This document shows, in pieces, positions 8,546 to 62,896 of a stretch of DNA of 64,000 nucleotides. Position numbers and translations under genes: made by a program. A model generated the notes under the pieces. The model saw nothing but the letters and a program-made list of their open reading frames with translations, did not search any database and was not told the DNA's origin. Where the stretch lies: contig NZ_JAIVLR010000002.1 in NCBI RefSeq assembly GCF_020524765.1, positions 708,501 through 772,500 of the forward strand. The letters run 5' to 3'. Source of the stretch: Qipengyuania gaetbuli (GTDB lineage Bacteria > Pseudomonadota > Alphaproteobacteria > Sphingomonadales > Sphingomonadaceae). How positions within the stretch are numbered: position 1 is the first letter of the stretch; every line of letters begins with the position of its first letter.

Positions 8546-10051
8546 ATGTTCGACAATCTGTCCGACCGGCTCGGCAATGTCTTCGACAAGCTCAAGGGCC
8601 GCGGCTCGCTGTCGGAGAACGACGTTCGCGAAGCCATGCGCGAAGTGCGCATCGCGCTGCTCGAAGCCGACGTCGCCCTGCCGGTGGTGCGCCGCTTCAT
8701 CGACGCGGTCACCGAAAAGGCCATCGGCTCGGAAGTCCTGAAGTCGGTCACGCCCGGCCAGCAGGTCGTCAAGATCGTCAATGACGAGCTGGTCGAAATG
8801 CTCGGCGGCGACGGCGACGATGCCGAATCGCGCGAACTGAACTTCTCGGCCAAGCCGCCGGTCGTCATCATGATGGTCGGCCTGCAGGGTTCGGGTAAGA
8901 CGACCACGACCGCCAAGCTCGGCAAGCTGCTCAAGGAAAAGCACGGCAAGAAGGCCATGATGGCCTCGCTCGACGTGAACCGTCCGGCCGCGCAGGAACA
9001 GCTCAAGGTGCTGGGCGAGCAGGTCAGTGTCGCCACGCTGCCGATCATTGCCGGCCAGCAGCCGGTTGACATCGCCCGCCGCGCCATGGAAAGCGCCAAG
9101 CTGCAGGCCGCCGACGTGCTGCTGCTCGATACCGCAGGTCGTCTCCACGTCGACGAGGCGCTGATGGCCGAGATGAAGGCGATCGCCTCCGTCTCCGCGC
9201 CCACCGAAGTGCTGCTGGTGGTCGACAGCCTGACCGGCCAGGACGCGGTCAACGTCGCGCAGAGCTTTACCGGCGAAGTGCCGCTGACCGGCGTGGTGCT
9301 GACCCGCATGGACGGCGATGCGCGCGGCGGTGCGGCGCTCTCGATGCGCTATGTCACGGGCAAGCCGATCAAATTTGCCGGTACCGGTGAAAAACTCGAC
9401 GCGATCGAGGCCTTCGATCCCAAGCGCGTTGCCGGCCGCATCCTCGGCATGGGCGACGTGGTCAGCCTGGTCGAAAAGGCCGCGGCGACGATCAAGGAGG
9501 AAGAGGCCGAAGCCCTCGCCAGGAAGATGGCGAAGGGGCAGTTCGACCTCGACGATTTGCGCATGCAGCTCAAGCAGATGCAGAGCATGGGCGGCCTCGG
9601 CGCGCTTGCAGGCATGATGCCGGGCATGAAGAAGGCCAAGGCGGCGATGCAGCAGTCGGGCATGGACGATCGCGTGCTGCTGCGCATGGACGCGATCATC
9701 GGCTCGATGACGCCGAAGGAACGCAAGCGTCCCGAACTGATGAACGCCAAGCGCAAGAAGCGCGTGGCGGCAGGCTCGGGCACCGACGTGCAGACCGTCA
9801 ACAAGGTGCTCAAGATGCACCAGGAGATGGGCCGCGCGATGAAGCAGATCAAGAAGATGGGCGGCCTCAAGGGTCTCGGCGCGCTGTTCGGCAAGGGTGG
9901 CCTCGGTGCCGCGATGCCGGGTCTCGGCGGTCCGGGTGGTCCGGGCCCGATGGGCGGCCTGCCGGGCCTTGGTTCCGGCGGCGGCAAGGGTCCTTCGGTG
10001 GACCCGGACACGCTGCCCGCCGACCTGCGTGATTTATTGAACAAGAAATAA
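8546..10051 (+). CDS. ffh: Signal recognition particle protein Ffh (SRP54)
   Basis: 501-residue GTPase that binds signal sequences of nascent membrane proteins with SRP RNA and delivers ribosomes to FtsY. The N domain (1-90) is followed by the G domain with P-loop GLQGSGKTTTTAKLG near residue 112, DVNRPAAQEQL, DTAGR and TRMDGDARGG. The methionine-rich M domain begins near residue 330 (GGLGALAGMMPGMKKAK). The C-terminus is an unusually Gly/Pro/Met-rich tail. It is 38 bp before rpsP and likely in one operon with rpsP-rimM. Confidence 0.97.
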   Translation: MFDNLSDRLGNVFDKLKGRGSLSENDVREAMREVRIALLEADVALPVVRRFIDAVTEKAIGSEVLKSVTPGQQVVKIVNDELVEMLGGDGDDAESRELNFSAKPPVVIMMVGLQGSGKTTTTAKLGKLLKEKHGKKAMMASLDVNRPAAQEQLKVLGEQVSVATLPIIAGQQPVDIARRAMESAKLQAADVLLLDTAGRLHVDEALMAEMKAIASVSAPTEVLLVVDSLTGQDAVNVAQSFTGEVPLTGVVLTRMDGDARGGAALSMRYVTGKPIKFAGTGEKLDAIEAFDPKRVAGRILGMGDVVSLVEKAAATIKEEEAEALARKMAKGQFDLDDLRMQLKQMQSMGGLGALAGMMPGMKKAKAAMQQSGMDDRVLLRMDAIIGSMTPKERKRPELMNAKRKKRVAAGSGTDVQTVNKVLKMHQEMGRAMKQIKKMGGLKGLGALFGKGGLGAAMPGLGGPGGPGPMGGLPGLGSGGGKGPSVDPDTLPADLRDLLNKK

Positions 10052-50571: not shown

Positions 50572-52389
50572 ATGACTGACCTTTCCAAGATCCGCAATTT
50601 CTCGATCATCGCTCATATCGATCACGGCAAGTCGACGCTCGCCGACCGGCTGATCCAGTTCACGGGCGGGCTGACCGACCGCGAGATGTCCGAGCAAGTC
50701 CTTGATAACATGGACATCGAGAAGGAGCGCGGCATCACCATCAAGGCGCAGACCGTGCGCCTCAACTACACCGCCAAGGATGGCGAGACCTATGAGCTCA
50801 ACCTCATGGACACGCCCGGCCACGTCGACTTCGCCTACGAGGTCTCGCGCTCCCTGGCAGCCTGCGAAGGCGCGCTGCTGGTGGTCGACGCCGCGCAGGG
50901 CGTGGAAGCCCAGACCCTCGCCAACGTCTACCAGTCGATCGAGCACGACCACGAGATCGTCCCCGTCATCAACAAGATCGACCTGCCCGCCGCCGAACCC
51001 GACAAGGTCCGCGCCGAGATCGAGGACATCATCGGCCTCGACGCATCGGACGCCGTCCTCACCAGCGCCAAGTCCGGCATCGGCATCGAGGATACGCTGG
51101 AAGCCCTCGTCGCCCGCATCCCGCCGCCGCAGGGCGACCGCGATGCACCGCTGAAGGCCATGCTGGTCGATTCATGGTACGACCCCTACCTCGGCGTGGT
51201 CATCCTCGTGCGCGTGATGGACGGGGTGATCAAGAAGGGCCTCAGCATCAAGTTCATGCAGGGCGGCACGCAGCACCTCATCGACCGCGTCGGCTGCTTC
51301 ACCCCCAAGCGCACCGACCTGCCCGAACTCGGGCCGGGCGAGATCGGCTTCATCACCGCCCAGATCAAGGAAGTCGAACAGGCCCGCGTCGGCGACACCA
51401 TCACCACGGTGAAGGGCGGGGCGGACAAGGCGCTGCCCGGCTACAAGGAAGTGCAGCCGGTGGTCTTCTGCGGCCTCTTCCCGGTCGACGCGGCCGAGTT
51501 CGAGAAGCTGCGCGAAAGCATCGGCAAGCTGCGCCTCAACGACGCCAGCTTCAGCTACGAGATGGAAAGCAGCGCCGCGCTCGGCTTCGGATTTCGCGCC
51601 GGCTTCCTCGGCCTGCTGCACTTGGAGATCATCCAGGAACGCCTGAGCCGCGAATACGACCTCGACCTTATCACCACGGCCCCGTCCGTGGTGTACCGCG
51701 TGCACCTCGCCCATACCAAGACCGAGGATGCCAAGGTCATCGACATCCACAACCCCGCCGACTGGCCGGACGTGAACCGGATCGACATGGTGGAGGAACC
51801 GTGGATCAAGGCGACGATCTACACGCCCGACGATTATCTCGGCGCGATCCTGAAGCTGTGCCAGGACCGCCGCGGCATCCAGACCGACCTCACCTATGTC
51901 GGCGGCCGCGCGCAGGTGACCTACGAGCTGCCGCTGAACGAGGTAGTGTTCGATTTCTACGACCGCCTGAAGTCGATCAGCCGCGGCTATGCCAGCTTCG
52001 ATTACGAACAGATCGGCCTGCGCGAAGGCGACCTCGTGAAGATGAACATCCTCGTCAACAACGAGCCGGTCGACGCGCTATCGCTGATCGTCCACCGCGC
52101 TGTGGCGGAAGAACGCGGCCGCGGCATGTGCGAACGGCTGAAGGATCTCATCCCGCGCCATTTGTTCAAGATCCCGATCCAGGCCGCGATCGGCGGCAAG
52201 ATCATCGCCCGCGAAACCATCGCCGCCCTTCGCAAGGACGTCACCGCCAAGTGCTACGGCGGCGACATCACGCGCAAGAAGAAGCTGCTGGAGAAGCAGA
52301 AGAAGGGCAAGGCCCGGATGCGCGAGTACGGGAACGTGAGCATCCCGCAGGAGGCGTTTATTGCCGCGCTGCGGATGGGGGAGGAGTGA
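50572..52389 (+). CDS. lepA: Elongation factor 4 (LepA)
   Basis: 605-residue translational GTPase that back-translocates or helps assemble stalled 30S/70S ribosomes. P-loop [14 protein letters not shown] near residue 13, [28 protein letters not shown], and the LepA-specific C-terminal domain with [18 protein letters not shown] and an extended [15 protein letters not shown]. Ends with a normal C-terminus ([15 protein letters not shown]), so the gene is complete despite abutting the AT-rich island 13 bases later. Confidence 0.97.
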
Positions 52390-52430
52390 AGCGGCTGATT
52401 GGAATAAAAAAATTTGATGCAAAAATGATT

Positions 52431-53090
52431 CTATGTGAAGGAAATGAAAGACAAATTTCTCTCGCCTTCAGTGATTGAATCGGAAAATTTATAATCAATA
52501 GCTCGTTTGTCAAAATCGCATGAGAAATAAACCGAGTTATAAAAATTCCGCAATACGAATTGAATGAACCGATAAGGGGTCAGGGGGGCCTGAACTGGAA
52601 TTCTGCAGCCCTTGTACTGTCCAAGTGTCAGGTGAGATCTAGGGTGATCCGGATCTTTGTGGTCCTTCGGGTCCGCCGAAAAATCGAACCGCACCGGAAA
52701 TTTGACCGAGTGTTTCCCGACTATATCAGCGAAGAGCTCATCCTTCATGTATAGTTCTGGATCCGAGTCGAAGATTTCGAGAATTGGCGATGGAAAGAGG
52801 GCCAGTCTATGTTTGGCAAGCGAGCCTTTTTCGAAAGTGTAGAGAAACTGGATCAACCCCCCGTCGAGCATTCGAATGTGATACGAGACCGATGACCGCA
52901 GAGCGTGATAAACTTCGTGGTAGGGTAAATCACGCAGACTCACTGACAGATCTGGTGAGTCCCCAATAGTTATGAGAGTTTGCTCACCGGACGTTTTTTG
53001 CGAAGGAAACGTTTGATGATCGGATAGGCCCTCTTTCACGAGGGTAGAAATTATGTCGTTAATTTGGTTGACGATTTGCCCGATTTTCAC
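52431..53090 (-). CDS. DUF2290 family protein
   Basis: 219 residues, mixed helix/strand, no signal peptide or membrane segment. The C-terminal part reads HPRSHLTLGQYKGCRIPVQ followed by PYRFIQFVLRNFYNSVY, which I recognise as DUF2290; function unknown. Several His, Asp and Glu (for example DPKDHKDPDHPRSH) could bind metal, but no established catalytic motif is seen. Its ATG overlaps the stop of the upstream helicase by 4 bp, indicating coupling. Base composition is AT-rich relative to neighbours. Confidence 0.8.
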   Translation of the reverse strand: MKIGQIVNQINDIISTLVKEGLSDHQTFPSQKTSGEQTLITIGDSPDLSVSLRDLPYHEVYHALRSSVSYHIRMLDGGLIQFLYTFEKGSLAKHRLALFPSPILEIFDSDPELYMKDELFADIVGKHSVKFPVRFDFSADPKDHKDPDHPRSHLTLGQYKGCRIPVQAPLTPYRFIQFVLRNFYNSVYFSCDFDKRAIDYKFSDSITEGERNLSFISFT

Positions 53091-55213
53091 TTTGCAAACA
53101 TTGCCTTCAAGCGTTCGCGCAGATCTTCAGGGAGGTCTTCAACTTTCACATCTCCTCCCTCAAGCGCCTCTATTACTCCTTGCAGGTCACTTACCTTTGC
53201 GTCCACACGCTGTCTTTCTGATCGCGTTAGATCACGGTTGACTATTTTCAGCGCCTTTTTGGTTTCCTCATCGGGATACACAAAGTCGAGGCGGAATTGA
53301 TGTTCCTTCACTCGCTCGAACTCCTCGCAAAGCCCACGCATTTCACTTCCAACGCCAAGAACGCGTACCCACGCTTTTGATCGCGTAATAGCAGTGAACA
53401 ATCTGTTGCGGATGATCGCACGGGTGCCAGGAAGTGTCGCATCGAAGCAGTCGTCTGCGTTTACAATGTAGACCATTCCGGCCTCGTTGCCTTTGGCCCG
53501 AAAGATTCCGGTGAAGGTTACGACATCCCGTTCGAAAAAGACATCAGGAGAGGTGGAAACGCCTGCCAGTGAGGAATTAACACCTTCACTCATAAGGCGT
53601 GCCCGAGCCTCACCAACAACCTTTCGAGTCCTAAACGGGTCTGGGTTTATGACTACAATATCCTCAGGCAAGAGTTCGTCTTCCCGAAGGTTTCTTAGGA
53701 TATTTTCGACAAGCCAGTCATCTTGGTCTTTCCTAGAATCAAAGGCTTTAAATTGGATCAGGTCGGAAACAGGCGAATGATTTTCGAGAAAAAGAGGGCT
53801 CGTTTCGTCAGTTCGATGAAGTGAGACATATTCTCCGTCTGCCAACGAACCTTCGCGGACTCTATAACCGACATCTTGCCACAACTGATTCTGTTCAAAA
53901 ATCTGGATCAGGCCACCGGGTTCGCGATAGATACCGAATCCTAGTGCGTGCGCAGTCGCTAGCACAGGCCTCGAATTGCGATAACACTTCTCAAGAATGA
54001 TATCTTGGCGGGGCTGCCCCGAAGCAGTGGGTGTGAACTCTACGATTGGGTTCCCATTCGCATCACTTCCGAACAATTCTTCGGGTCCCGGAAGAGAAGC
54101 GTTGGTTAGTGATTGAAGTTCGTCATAAGCGTAAACTAAACGATGCGGGGCACGAAGAATAGAGTAACAAAGCCGTATGAAGGAGGATGGAAGATCTTGA
54201 GCCTCATCGACAAGAATCGCATCATAGACCGGTTCGATTTTTCTTGCTGACAACACTGCTTCTTCGCAGGCGCCAGCAAATTCTTTCCCTTCGCCAAATG
54301 CCCCCTGTGCGGAGCGGAAATCGCGATAAGCTAACTCATTTGATTTTACGAAATTAAAATATATCCCTTCCGATCTAGGAGAACCCCACGAATGCAGAAT
54401 TCGAATTTTGCTCCAGTCCGGTTCTTCGCTTGTCTGTTCGAAAACAAATGACGTAATGAGGCGTTCAAATTGTCCTTTTAGAGACCGAGTATTAAAAGTT
54501 ATCGCGATGTGCCAGTCGGGATTTTGGGCGTGAAGATAAGCAACTTTGAGTGCGAGTACGATTGTCTTGCCAGATCCCGCTAGGCCGCGAATACGCTGCA
54601 CACCTTCAACCGTTTCGACAACCGCGGCGTTCTGATTCTCGTCTAGGTTCGCAATAGACTCATTTAAGCGATGTAGTTTTGCGCCCCGTGAATTATCATT
54701 CTCGATACTACGCTTGCGCTTAGTTTTTCTTACTGTGGTCAGCGACTGTATCGCCGCGGCCAAGGCGGGAAATCGTTCTTGGTCGTCCCATTCGAGCTTT
54801 AGGATCTCTTTCGGAAGATCTGCGCTGCCTACTACGAGGTATTCATCATCTAACGGCTCAACCGCAGCGCTTGGAGCGAATGTAATGACCTCGATTTTCG
54901 CTGCAAGCTCGCGGCGTTTCATCAAATTCGGATATTGCAGAAGCTTTGACTTGAGCTTGGCGAACAAATCGTCTTGTCGTTCTTGATATGCTCCGAGCTC
55001 TTTTCCTTCGACAAGATCGAAGGCGATCGCCCCACGCGTCGGGCTGAGAAGCAACGCGTCGAAAGGGAACGCCCCTTCCGGGGTCCCGATGATCGGGTAC
55101 CCGATGTAGAGGGTTCCGTCCTCATCGCCAAGTGTCGCCAAGGTATCAGCAAGTTGCCTCGCTGAGACAGGCTTTGTGGTGCTTCCCCATACGGTATCCA
55201 TAGGCGAATGCAT
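53087..55213 (-). CDS. Superfamily 1 (UvrD-like) helicase with possible NERD/PD-(D/E)xK-like N-terminus
   Basis: 708 residues from ATG 55213. Helicase motifs in order: Walker A GLAGSGKT (210-217), Walker B VDEAQD (335-340), YDELQ (~364), LEKCYRNSRP (~408), FRAKGNEAGMVYIV (~571) and RLFTAITRSKAW (~604), a full SF1 UvrD/Rep-type set. The first ~120 residues (FDALLLSPTRGAIAFDLVEG) resemble a nuclease-related domain; Asp52 and Glu69-x-Lys71 could be a PD-(D/E)xK active site. First of the two island genes. The frame is open upstream to 55387 but would overlap the HTH gene, and start support at 55213 or 55201 is only moderate. Confidence 0.85.
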   Translation of the reverse strand: MHSPMDTVWGSTTKPVSARQLADTLATLGDEDGTLYIGYPIIGTPEGAFPFDALLLSPTRGAIAFDLVEGKELGAYQERQDDLFAKLKSKLLQYPNLMKRRELAAKIEVITFAPSAAVEPLDDEYLVVGSADLPKEILKLEWDDQERFPALAAAIQSLTTVRKTKRKRSIENDNSRGAKLHRLNESIANLDENQNAAVVETVEGVQRIRGLAGSGKTIVLALKVAYLHAQNPDWHIAITFNTRSLKGQFERLITSFVFEQTSEEPDWSKIRILHSWGSPRSEGIYFNFVKSNELAYRDFRSAQGAFGEGKEFAGACEEAVLSARKIEPVYDAILVDEAQDLPSSFIRLCYSILRAPHRLVYAYDELQSLTNASLPGPEELFGSDANGNPIVEFTPTASGQPRQDIILEKCYRNSRPVLATAHALGFGIYREPGGLIQIFEQNQLWQDVGYRVREGSLADGEYVSLHRTDETSPLFLENHSPVSDLIQFKAFDSRKDQDDWLVENILRNLREDELLPEDIVVINPDPFRTRKVVGEARARLMSEGVNSSLAGVSTSPDVFFERDVVTFTGIFRAKGNEAGMVYIVNADDCFDATLPGTRAIIRNRLFTAITRSKAWVRVLGVGSEMRGLCEEFERVKEHQFRLDFVYPDEETKKALKIVNRDLTRSERQRVDAKVSDLQGVIEALEGGDVKVEDLPEDLRERLKAMFAK

Positions 55214-55268
55214 CTCGCACGATGGTAGAAGTAAGACAACTACCTTCGCATGTTTGTAGGTTGCGTTT

Positions 55269-56093
55269 CTAATCCCACCCCTCATCCTTGAGCGTCCGCA
55301 AGCGCAGGCGGTTTTCCTCTTCCTCGGCTTCCATTTCCGCGACCTCGTCGTCCCACCACTCGGGTAGCTGGACCTCGCCGTCCTCACGCGTCCGGCGGGC
55401 GTGGTTGGGGTTGTACATTTCGTGCTCGGGATCGCGGCGGGGGTTGTAGCCTTCGGCGCGATCGGCGGCGATTGCGGCTTCCAGCGCCTCGCGCGCGGCG
55501 CGCACGCGGGGGCTTTCGATGGCTTCCTCCCGCGCGCGGATCGCGTCGATCTTGGCGTTGATCGATTCTATCGTCACCGCCTCCTGCTTCAGCTGCTCGG
55601 CGGCGCGTTCGGCCTCCCATTCCTTGCGCCATTGCTTGCGCAGGCGGGTCAGCTCCATCTTGTCGACTGCGTTCCCGCCGCCCTGGCGCAGCGCGCTGCG
55701 GCCATCGGCAAAGCGATCGGGCGAGCGGTTCCTCAGCATGAACATGAGCAGGCGGTCGTTATGCGAAATGCGCGTGCCGACGAGCTTGCCGTAGGAGTAC
55801 ACGGGCACCTCCACCCCGTTTAAGGCGCGGTCCATGGCGACATCCTCGATCCGGCGCATGCCGAAATCGAGCGCGGCTTCCCAGGCGGCGGCGAATTCCT
55901 CTGCCCCCGGCTGGCGGCGCAAGTGGTAGGCGCCATGCGTGCTGCGCCCCACCGCGCGGCAGGCCGCGGTGACGGAGCCGGTATCGGCCAGCGCCTCGAT
56001 AAAGGCGCGCTGGACTTCGGGTTTCCACCCGTTGCTGCGGTCTTTGAGGCGAGGGACGGGGGCGAAGGCGGGGAGGAGTTTGGGTGTGCTCAT
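55269..56093 (-). CDS. HTH plus coiled-coil protein, terminase-small-subunit-like
   Basis: 274 residues, GC-rich like the chromosome. The N-terminal third (WKPEVQRAFIEALADTGSVTAACRAVGRS) looks like a helix-turn-helix of the kind found in phage terminase small subunits. Residues ~130-230 are a charged Ala/Glu/Arg coiled coil, and the C-terminus is acidic with EWWDDEVAEMEAEEEE. Function unknown; a nucleic-acid binder is my inference. Its stop is at the very edge of the AT-rich island. No terminase large subunit or other phage gene is nearby. Confidence 0.6.
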   Translation of the reverse strand: MSTPKLLPAFAPVPRLKDRSNGWKPEVQRAFIEALADTGSVTAACRAVGRSTHGAYHLRRQPGAEEFAAAWEAALDFGMRRIEDVAMDRALNGVEVPVYSYGKLVGTRISHNDRLLMFMLRNRSPDRFADGRSALRQGGGNAVDKMELTRLRKQWRKEWEAERAAEQLKQEAVTIESINAKIDAIRAREEAIESPRVRAAREALEAAIAADRAEGYNPRRDPEHEMYNPNHARRTREDGEVQLPEWWDDEVAEMEAEEEENRLRLRTLKDEGWD

Positions 56094-59438: not shown

Positions 59439-60704
59439 TCAGGGCCGCGTCTGTCCGCTGCCGTGTACGAGGTATTTGAAGCTGCACAGCTGTTCGAGGC
59501 CGACCGGCCCGCGCGCATGCATCTTGCCGGTGGCGATGCCGATTTCCGCGCCCATGCCGAACTCGCCGCCGTCGGAGAACTGGGTGGAGGCATTGTGCAT
59601 GACGACAGCGCTGTCCACGCCGAGCAGGAAGCGGCGAGCGGCCTCGTCGTCATCGGTCAGGATCGCGTCGGTATGATGGCTCGAGTGGTCTTCGACCCAC
59701 GCGATCGCTTCGTCCAGCCCGTCCACGATTTTCACCGAGGCGATGGGGCCGAGGTATTCGGTGTCCCAGTCTTCTTCGCTGGCAGGGGCGATGCGCCCGT
59801 CGATAGCGACCGCTTCCGCGTCGCCGCGCAGTTCGCAATCGGCTGCCATCGCGTCGGCGAGGGCGGGGACTGCTTGGCCCGCAAGGCTGCGGTCGATCAC
59901 GATGCTTTCGGTCGCCCCGCAAACGCCTGTGCGACGCAGCTTTGCGTTGCGGATGACGTCCACTGCCTTCGCGACGTCGGCGGCTTCATGGATGTAGCTG
60001 TGGCAATTGCCGTCGAGGTGGAGAAGCGTGGGCACGCTTGCCTGGTCGCGCACTAGTTCGACGAGGCCGCGCCCGCCGCGCGGGATGACGAGGTCGACGA
60101 ACTTGTCGGCCTTGAGCAGTGCTGCCACCGCTGCACGGTCGGTCGTCTGTACGGTCTGTACCGCATCGCGCGGAAGTCCGGCAGCCTCGAGGCCGGCCTG
60201 CATGCAGTCGACGATGACGCGCGTGGAATGGCGGCTTTCGCTACCCCCGCGCAGGATGACGGCGTTGCCGCTCTTGAGGCACAGAGCCGAAGCGTCCGCG
60301 CCGACATTCGGGCGGCTTTCGTAGATCATGCCGATGACCCCGATAGGTACGGCGACGCGTTCGATCTTGAGGCCGTTGGGCCTCTCGAACGTCGCGAGCG
60401 AGCGGCCCACGGGATCGGGCAGTTCGGCAATTTCCTCCAGCGCATTTGCCATGCCTTCGATCCGCTCATCGTCAAGGCGCAAGCGGTCGATGAAGCTGTC
60501 GGGCTTCTTGCCCGCGACGCTTGCGACATCGCGATCGTTCGCCTCGATCAATTCGGCACTCGCGCTGCGGAGGGCCCTGGCTGCTTCGCGCAACGCTGCG
60601 TTCTTGGCGTCGGTGCTGGCGGAAACAAGGCGGCGCGCAGCCTTGCGGGCGCGCTGGCCTAGCTCGTGAATATGGATCTGGGGGTCGAGTGCCTGGTCGG
60701 TCAT
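59439..60704 (-). CDS. proA: Gamma-glutamyl phosphate reductase
   Basis: 421-residue aldehyde-dehydrogenase-fold enzyme reducing gamma-glutamyl phosphate to glutamate semialdehyde in proline synthesis. Typical segments: [41 protein letters not shown], and the catalytic Cys in [36 protein letters not shown] near the end. Length matches the family (about 417). It lies 46 bp downstream of proC. Confidence 0.95.
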
Positions 60705-60750: not shown

Positions 60751-61518
60751 TCAGCGCAGCTCTACCGCCCTGTCATAAGCCGCCTGCAATGTAGCACGCA
60801 GACGATCGGTTAGGCCATCGTCGCCGTTGAGTGCGGCGAGGCCGGCGGCGGTAGTGCCGCCCTTGCTGGTGACGGAGTTGCGCAACTCCTCCAGCGACAG
60901 CGCGCCCGGCTCGCTCGCCATGGCGATTGCGCCGCCGATTGTGCCCAGCACCATTTCGCGCGCCTGCTGTTCGGTGAAGCCCTGTTCCATCGCGGCCAGC
61001 GCATATGCGCGGGCGATTTCGAAGACGTAGCCGGGGCCCGAACCTGCAACTGCCGTTACGCGGTCGAGTTCGTCCTCGCTGGCGACGGTTACGGTCGTCC
61101 CCGCGCGGGCCATGAAGTCCTGCACATGGGCGGTATGCGCCGCGGTAGCACCCTCGGCGGGGTAAATGCCGCTGACGCCTTGCCCGATGGCTGCGGGGAG
61201 GTTCGGCATGACGCGCACGACCGGCGCGCCGTTCATCGCCTGCGAGAGGCGGCCGGCGGAATAACCCGCCGCAATGGACAGGACATAGCCGCCCGGCGCG
61301 AGGTTTGCGGCATAGGCGGGCATGATGTCGTCGATCATCTGCGGCTTCACCGCGATCACCATGCAATCGAAGCTTTCGCCTTCGATTTCGGTACGATCGG
61401 ACGCGAGCCGCGCGCCGCCGGGCACGCTTTTCTGGCCGGGATCGACCACGGTGATCGACTCCGGACCCTTGGCCCATTGACCCAATAGAGCGGATCCCAT
61501 CTTTCCGCATCCGACCAT
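60751..61518 (-). CDS. proC: Pyrroline-5-carboxylate reductase
   Basis: Last step of proline synthesis, NAD(P)H-dependent. From ATG 61518 the product has 255 residues beginning [13 protein letters not shown]; conserved [24 protein letters not shown] and a C-terminal [13 protein letters not shown] are present. An in-frame ATT at 61536, preceded by AGGA with 7-base spacing, would restore the first beta-strand ([13 protein letters not shown]) as in relatives. No ATG, GTG or TTG fits there, and no good ribosome-binding site precedes 61518. I report the conservative ATG but believe ATT is likelier. Confidence 0.93.
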
Positions 61519-61747
61519 GAGTACCGTATTGATAATGGTTGTTTCCTGTTCTCGCGTCGGTACGCGATTTTTCCAAATGGATGATACTTCAAATTACTTT
61601 GAGCACTTGGCGTAGTAACGGATTGATTTCGCGTTGTAGACACATCTATTCAGTGCATTCGAAATTCATCGGATTTGCCATTGTGCGCTGCACCATGAGT
61701 ATCTATATCACTTTCCGATTATTTCAAGGTTGAATCATTTTTCTATT

Positions 61748-62896
61748 ATGGCTTCACGCAAGACACTCGTCGTTAAAATCGGATCCGCGCTGCTGGCAAA
61801 TCAGGATTTGCTTACCCCCCGTTACGGTTTCCTTCAGCGCTTGATGGAAGATATCGCTGCGCTCAGGGCCGAGGGCTGGAATGTGCTTGTGTGTTCCTCC
61901 GGATCGGTCGCGTTGGGGCTGCGCATTATCGGTGAAACGCCGCAAAGCGCGGGCGTGTCCGACAAGCAGGCGGCAGCTGCCTGCGGAATGCCGCTGCTGC
62001 TCAACGCCTACAAGCAGGTCGGGCACGAATTCGGTTTTGACATCGCGCAGGTGCTGCTGACGCTCGGCGATTTCGAGGATCACCGTCGCTTCCTCAATAC
62101 GCGCAATACCGTTCATCGCCTGCTCGAAGCGGGCGTCATGCCGATCGTGAACGAGAACGACACGATCACGACCGAGGAAATCCGCGTCGGCGACAACGAC
62201 CGGCTCGCGGCCAAGGTCGCCCAGATGGTCGGGGCGAGCGACTTCATCATCCTCACCGGCGTCGACGGGCTGTATGACCGCAATCCGGACGATCCGGACG
62301 CGCGCTTCGTGGAAGAGGTCGAGGACGTGTCGCAATACATGGATGCGACCAAGGGCAAGAGCACGCTCGGCACGGGCGGGATGGCAACGAAGCTGCAGGC
62401 GGCGAACATGGCGCAGGAAGCGGGCGTCACTACGTGGATCGCGCAGGGCGAGGTCGACCGGCCGCTGTCACGTGTGCTGTCAGGCGAGGGCAGGGCCACG
62501 AGGGTCATGCCCAATCCCGAACCCCTTTCCGGCTGGGACAGCTGGATCGCCAACCGCTTGCAGATGGCAGGCAGCCTCGTAGTGTCGGAGAAGGTAGCCG
62601 ATGAAGTGGCGCAGGGCGGCCGCCCGATCCGCCGGGCGGACGTGGTATCCGCCGACGGCGATTTTACTCGCGGCGACGTGCTGCATGTCTACGACAGCAA
62701 GGGCATAGAGCGCGCGCGCGGCCTGTCCGATTTCACCTCGGAAGAACTACGCGTGATGATCAACAACCCCGATACCGATGCCGAACAACTGCTCGGCTAT
62801 CGCACCAAGGGCGAGATCATCCGCGACAACAACCTCGTCGCGCTCGATACGCGCCACCTGCTGTGGGACGCGCCCGCAGCGCTCAGCGAAGGCTAG
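61748..62896 (+). CDS. proB: Glutamate 5-kinase
   Basis: 382-residue first enzyme of proline synthesis, phosphorylating glutamate. N-terminal amino-acid-kinase domain: TLVVKIGSALLANQ, SSGSVALGLRI, and IVNENDTITTEEIRVGDNDRLAAKVA; C-terminal PUA domain begins near residue 280. The ATG at 61748 is chosen; a TTG at 61730 in the same frame is the alternative, and neither has a strong ribosome-binding site. It is divergent from proC-proA, completing the pathway within 3.5 kb. Confidence 0.94.
   Translation: MASRKTLVVKIGSALLANQDLLTPRYGFLQRLMEDIAALRAEGWNVLVCSSGSVALGLRIIGETPQSAGVSDKQAAAACGMPLLLNAYKQVGHEFGFDIAQVLLTLGDFEDHRRFLNTRNTVHRLLEAGVMPIVNENDTITTEEIRVGDNDRLAAKVAQMVGASDFIILTGVDGLYDRNPDDPDARFVEEVEDVSQYMDATKGKSTLGTGGMATKLQAANMAQEAGVTTWIAQGEVDRPLSRVLSGEGRATRVMPNPEPLSGWDSWIANRLQMAGSLVVSEKVADEVAQGGRPIRRADVVSADGDFTRGDVLHVYDSKGIERARGLSDFTSEELRVMINNPDTDAEQLLGYRTKGEIIRDNNLVALDTRHLLWDAPAALSEG

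Follow-up and report, generated by a model that had tools for sequence, protein, structure and literature searches.

Within the 64,000-nucleotide stretch of the Qipengyuania gaetbuli genome analysed here (hereafter the window), the segment at 52390–55268 carries two minus-strand genes, and no other plausible gene was seen in it. The larger gene (53087–55201) encodes an SF1 (UvrD-like) helicase of 704 aa when read from the ATG at 55201, and an alternative ATG at 55213 would give 708 aa. The smaller one (52431–53090) encodes a DUF2290 protein of 219 aa from a GTG start, which overlaps the stop codon of the helicase gene by 4 bp (GTGA). The limits 52390 and 55268 are those of the interval bounded by the neighbouring stop codons, and the genes themselves occupy about 52431–55201. 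The left neighbour is lepA (50572–52389, plus strand), for which 55 of the 60 genus genomes, this one included, gave a match at E ≤ 1e-250. The right neighbour is an HTH gene resembling that of a terminase small subunit, TerS (55269–56093, minus strand; family phrog_4044), which adjoins lepA in relatives. Farther to the right lies a gene that we take from its sequence to be proA (59439–60704, minus strand), which was compared by eye with locus L070 and which is the neighbour of lepA in one relative, G020.

The base composition falls abruptly between lepA and the HTH gene, with 48.5% GC in the segment against 64.0% and 67.6% in these two genes, and the GC3 values of the enclosed genes (0.48 and 0.51) differ likewise from those of the flanking genes (0.91 and 0.85). 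The window as a whole has 63% GC, compared with 48% for the segment; only 10 of 253 1-kb windows fell below 54% GC, and all of these start at 52001–54251 and nowhere else in the 64 kb. The preliminary description had pointed to this fall in GC and to two overlapping genes with nothing beside them, and both observations were borne out. Being low in GC and dissimilar to the matching segment of two close relatives, the segment is referred to here as an exchangeable cassette. A smaller GC dip is present at 61250–62000, presumably the proC–proB junction; since L067 (perhaps also L066) dips in a similar place, this one looks native.

The two proteins match, over their full length, the models of one anti-phage system in PADLOC. 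The helicase scored 1066 bits against PDLC03002 ('Helicase'), covering residues 7–708 of 709, and the smaller protein scored 260 bits against PDLC02999 ('DUF2290'); its assignment to DUF2290, proposed earlier, is also supported by Pfam PF10053 (E 2.1e-45, 155 bits). Although the pair had at first been thought not to be assignable to any named system, the helicase + DUF2290 system of Rousset et al. (2022, PMC9122126) fits, and as judged by these matches the pair almost certainly belongs to it (Rst_HelicaseDUF2290). Both genes, their order, their close coupling and the full-length model matches are shared with the published system, and it counts as a divergent new member of an anti-phage system that was already known. 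The defence role suggested in the preliminary description is probably right. In the passages of Rousset et al. concerned, a helicase + DUF2290 pair from a P4-like satellite conferred T7-specific inhibition; this activity was published for another member and not for the pair at 52431–55201. The same passages place the published members in P4-like satellites or prophage hotspots, whereas the pair described here occupies a chromosomal hotspot between lepA and the TerS-like gene.

The helicase carries the full set of SF1 motifs that had been claimed for it. Among 51 aligned helicase homologues, its own sequence included, GSGKT (Walker A), DEAQD, YAYDELQ, CYRN and TAITRSK (motif VI) are invariant or nearly so, and the protein is best taken as a predicted active motor.

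The coupling of the two genes extends far beyond this genome. A scan of the genome contigs with a single protein as query gave no match, and a scan with a DUF2290 alignment gave 127 relatives, the best 80 of which were used together with 3 from viral contigs, resulting in 83 loci. Adjacency in other genomes, a check named in the preliminary description, was found in 80 of these 83 loci, where the C-terminus of a helicase is encoded on the same strand no more than 600 bp upstream. Among the 65 pairs for which both frames were recovered, the genes overlap by 4 bp in 17 and by 1 bp in 11. The DUF2290 relatives at L110, L131 and L154 have no helicase match and might be stand-alone or remnant copies. 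DUF2290 is rare, being present in 4 of 385 genomes of a class sample and in 9 of 398 of a phylum sample (the genome studied here is counted in both), and in 11 of the 12 distinct class and phylum loci a helicase frame was recognised upstream by eye, the exception being a stretch of 1,955 bp. In addition, 12 plasmid records matched DUF2290, and all 7 that were examined have a gene of about 2.1 kb for an 'ATP-binding domain-containing protein' just upstream. In a Thioflavicoccus plasmid (L087), a helicase–DUF2290 pair is located inside a BREX operon, between a DNA methyltransferase gene and a PglZ-domain gene. No DUF2290 match was found among the phage records of the annotated collection.

Among the 83 loci, the closest pair is on viral contig L170, with 74% identity for the helicase and 61% for DUF2290. 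This pair also forms a GC trough (51% vs 65% and 68%), and it is flanked by genes recognised by eye as repressor-like and tail-type. As for the wider neighbourhood, 121 PADLOC families were matched at E 1e-15 near the pair and 75 far from it, in a comparison of 80 with 80 proteins (one longest frame per zone) from those 40 of the 80 genome-contig loci with room on all sides; families rather than proteins were counted and both sets contain defence genes, so that the excess near the pair is suggestive only.

Within the genus, the helicase was found in only 2 of 60 genomes, including the one studied here, and the other copy is 34% identical. The preliminary description had regarded the presence of the pair at the same place in most relatives as evidence against its reading; with the helicase in so few genomes, the locus is not conserved.

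The borders of the cassette were mapped by blastn of the window against two close relatives, G010 and G011, with an E limit of 1e-3. On the lepA side, the sequences are 97.3–97.4% identical up to 52387–52391, at the stop codon of lepA, after which no match was obtained; on the other side, similarity returns at 55269, the stop codon of the HTH gene, at 95.6–95.8%. The window, G010 and G011 thus hold three different cargoes in the same junction. Moreover, HTH proteins are at least 90% identical in 16 of 528 pairs of loci, and in only 1 of these 16 pairs do the loci have a cargo protein in common, the HNH protein described below being left out of account. The cargo is therefore replaced much more rapidly than the sequences on either side, a pattern in keeping with homologous recombination between these flanks. 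From the borders, cassette swapping is likely to occur by homologous recombination within the conserved genes on both sides. A gene transfer agent of the RcGTA type was considered as a vehicle and rejected: the GTA_TIM marker was present in none of the 60 genus genomes, with a positive Caulobacter vibrioides control, a result that covers clusters carrying the GTA_TIM protein.

The junction between lepA and the HTH gene is filled in 44 of the 60 genus genomes (32 relatives with fetched intervals, the window and 11 judged from match coordinates), with a length of 1851–6120 bp and a median of 3139 bp; these lengths are estimates, since several HTH genes were matched only in part. In all 32 relatives in which lepA and the HTH gene are close together, the interval is filled and has 46–59% GC. 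Five further genomes have no HTH gene in the sequence that follows lepA, and in none of them was a 500-bp window below 53% GC found within 3 kb of lepA; these 5 and the 44 filled genomes are those covered by the counts of junction states. In G020, proA follows about 57 bp after lepA, and in the other four of these genomes the place is taken by genes with a normal GC content. An empty junction in close relatives had been looked for on the strength of the preliminary description, and this expectation held in part: G020 does have a lepA–proA junction without the HTH gene or any cargo, but the junction is filled in most of the genomes.

The cargo of this junction is highly diverse. Cargo proteins no shorter than 140 aa number 83 (two are those of the window, and some may be spurious frames) and cluster into 60 families; when a recurrent HNH protein is disregarded, the 32 loci with such proteins, namely the window and 31 relatives, form 24 cargo clusters that have no protein in common. 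The HNH protein is conserved and occurs in 10 loci (e.g., L033:2431–3333) beside unrelated cargo, perhaps as a semi-resident component of the slot. The interval of G031 (L051), 3.1 kb long with 46% GC, has no frame of at least 140 aa and perhaps contains decayed cargo. Of the 81 cargo proteins that do not belong to the window, 50 were searched against Pfam; 37 of these gave a match at 1e-3, two of them (the L039 reverse transcriptase and L062:642–1286) under Pfam's own cut-off, and 13 gave none. The matched cargo includes DNA methyltransferases in 11 loci (EcoRI, Eco57I, MmeI, type ISP, Dcm and D12 types), GmrSD_N with HNH, reverse transcriptases in 2 loci and GHKL ATPases in 3, as well as SIR2_2, PLD, AIPR, HD, ParA- and ParB-type proteins and DUF4411 with an M78 peptidase. 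MazG_C with base-modification domains, a DEAD-type helicase and another UvrD helicase are also present. Many of these families serve defence, and the junction is a cassette-swap hotspot with cargo largely of defence type. Among the proteins without a Pfam match at 1e-3 are L037:1898–2653, L043:3002–3604, L049:3485–4327, L050:3014–3985, L050:4092–4955, L061:3487–4296, L063:3648–4463 and L064:604–1464; such proteins, several of which are adjacent to methyltransferases or a SIR2 protein, are candidates for unknown nucleases or defence parts.

The HTH protein at the right border of the hotspot resembles phage terminase small subunits, with a match to phrog_4044 (terminase small subunit) at E 1.8e-20; it has no match up to E 1 in Pfam, PADLOC or NCBIfam. 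The TerS-like gene has paralogs in the genus among the matches listed, and one of them bounds a second variable slot upstream of rpsL. This slot was delimited in 18 loci (17 of 20 regions plus L053), with a length of 2174–3891 bp and a median of 3155 bp, and it also differs between G000 and G011, where its flanks are 97.8% and 94.8% identical. The other helicase–DUF2290 pair of the genus is found here, at 9470–12461 of L053 in G001, between the str operon (rpsL side) and the TerS paralog. By eye, the cargo of this slot (L184–L198, L201, L202) includes OLD-like ATPases (L184, L188), a TIR-like protein (L185) and a D12-type methylase (L187). Variable segments of low GC, about 2 kb long, also lie directly upstream of further TerS paralogs at L220–L223, L226 and L227.

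This recurrent border raises the question of whether the cassette and the TerS-like gene form one mobile unit, minimal and satellite-like or phage-derived, in which TerS would promote packaging or exchange, instead of being a fixed anchor next to cargo that is swapped passively. In favour of such a unit are the phrog_4044 match, a filled interval wherever TerS follows lepA (33 of 33 compared), the lack of low-GC windows beside lepA in all five TerS-less genomes, and the narrow spread of interval sizes at the two hotspots, with medians of 3.1 and 3.2 kb. In addition, 14 of 17 str-operon loci and 6 of 6 loci of a third group have a 1-kb window below 53% GC no farther than 3.5 kb from TerS, the second figure being biased because that group was assigned partly after the GC profiles had been viewed. 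However, in two other sets of paralogs only a minority of loci show cargo of this kind (2 of 13 and 4 of 15); in the same order of sets, windows more than 4 kb from TerS were below 53% GC in 0 of 406, 15 of 143, 0 of 308 and 8 of 330 cases, a comparison that sets loci (near) against windows (far). The association of TerS with low-GC cargo is thus true of some paralogs and not of all. In addition, similarity between close relatives with different cargo spans the whole TerS gene, TerS distance tracks LepA distance weakly (rho 0.21, with 19 of 999 permutations as high), no integrase was seen among the Pfam-named cargo proteins, and no TerS relative was found in named phage and plasmid records at E 1e-5. 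Taken with these points, a single mobile unit is unlikely.

A related proposal is that, in this genus, TerS-like DNA-binding proteins mark a set of chromosomal slots and take part in their working (one slot following lepA, one upstream of rpsL and perhaps a third), with defence cassettes of about 3 kb and 1–3 genes passing between species without an integrase of their own, by packaging in particles and subsequent recombination in the flanks. We put this forward as a speculation that is more probably wrong than right by a wide margin. If it were true, the cassettes would owe their narrow size and their recurring TerS border to being packaged and carried by a phage-like particle before they recombine through the flanks, and the helicase–DUF2290 pair would fill two such slots in two species. 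A literature search did not find the arrangement of a terminase-like gene bordering defence cassettes, most subscription journals being outside its coverage. In the passages concerned, both the core defence hotspots (PMC10250203) and the lateral transduction of defence islands (PMC12829572) resemble the lepA slot in that variable defence cargo occupies fixed chromosomal places. Unlike the cases in those passages, the cassettes described here are small and narrow in size, and a TerS-like gene borders at least two separate places.

We return to the reading that we consider probable as a whole, namely that a pair of the known system was acquired as a cassette into the lepA–TerS hotspot, where cassettes of about 3 kb would replace one another. 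As to how the pair might act, the helicase may load on DNA intermediates of phage (or plasmid) replication and, with ATP, license DUF2290, an effector that would probably act on nucleic acid, in the manner of GajB and GajA in Gabija or of HamB and HamA in Hachiman. The chances of this sensor–effector scheme, drawn by analogy, are about even. The pair is not Gabija itself, in which the partner is the GajA nuclease: here the partner matches DUF2290 models only, the cassette has no third gene, and the best GajB model gives 31.6 bits on the helicase against 1066 for the system's own model. With Hachiman, as far as its published passages go, the pair would share a two-gene logic of sensor helicase and small effector, but HamB is an SF2 Ski2-type helicase in those passages and the helicase here is SF1. 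The HamA protein of Hachiman belongs to another family, DUF1837.

The DUF2290 protein has a set of conserved residues. In 69 sequences, D76, H94, R134, D136, H149, H153, R163 and E210 are invariant; when 5 more distant members are added to 11 others, D76, R134, H149, H153 and R163 stay invariant, and H94 and E210 are lost in the 5 distant members. These residues look like a putative active or binding site. A fairly confident structure model was obtained with a pLDDT of 84.8 and a pTM of 0.83, for which neither Foldseek nor VIA-align gave a convincing fold relative (PDB, BFVD), and sequence searches found no solved relative. Since the fold searches gave no convincing match, the designation of DUF2290 as an effector acting on nucleic acid draws on conservation and analogy.

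DUF2290 might instead be related, in elaborated form, to TumE (DUF6516), the toxin of TumE–TumA loci that blocks translation; the system would then be an abortive-infection toxin restrained and then released by the helicase. By eye, the motifs DG[AS]..Q, R[FY]D and H..H resemble each other in the two families, the sheet-and-helices outline is like that described for TumE, and the bicistronic order is as in TumE loci. The likeness is confined to this level, since profile comparison was not significant: against 11 TumE sequences of one kind, hhalign gave probabilities of 1.1% and 0.8%, and 0.0% (global) and 3.4% (local) after removal of an insertion, and none of the 69 DUF2290 members matched PF20126 up to E 10. 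Kinship with TumE is thus very improbable. Repair is a frequent role of SF1A UvrD-like helicases, but the pair is extremely unlikely to be a chromosomal host module for repair or replication restart that plays no part in defence, given the two genus genomes with the helicase, the 48% GC inside a 63% GC window, the relatives of the pair on plasmids and viral contigs, and the restriction-modification and other defence-type genes that the host's relatives carry at the same place.

As a pair of genes, the helicase and DUF2290 are ordinary, and it is the slot beside a terminase-like gene that is worth following. The helicase + DUF2290 system has been reported as anti-phage without a mechanism in the published passages concerned, and a diverged member adds an alignment that points at residues. 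At two or more fixed addresses, the genus accommodates small interchangeable cassettes, the borders of which are visible between close relatives. As 13 of the 50 cargo proteins scanned had no Pfam match, these slots offer a cheap route to new defence systems. Moreover, they provide a handle on the movement of chromosomal defence genes, which was called poorly understood in a passage of PMC12829572.
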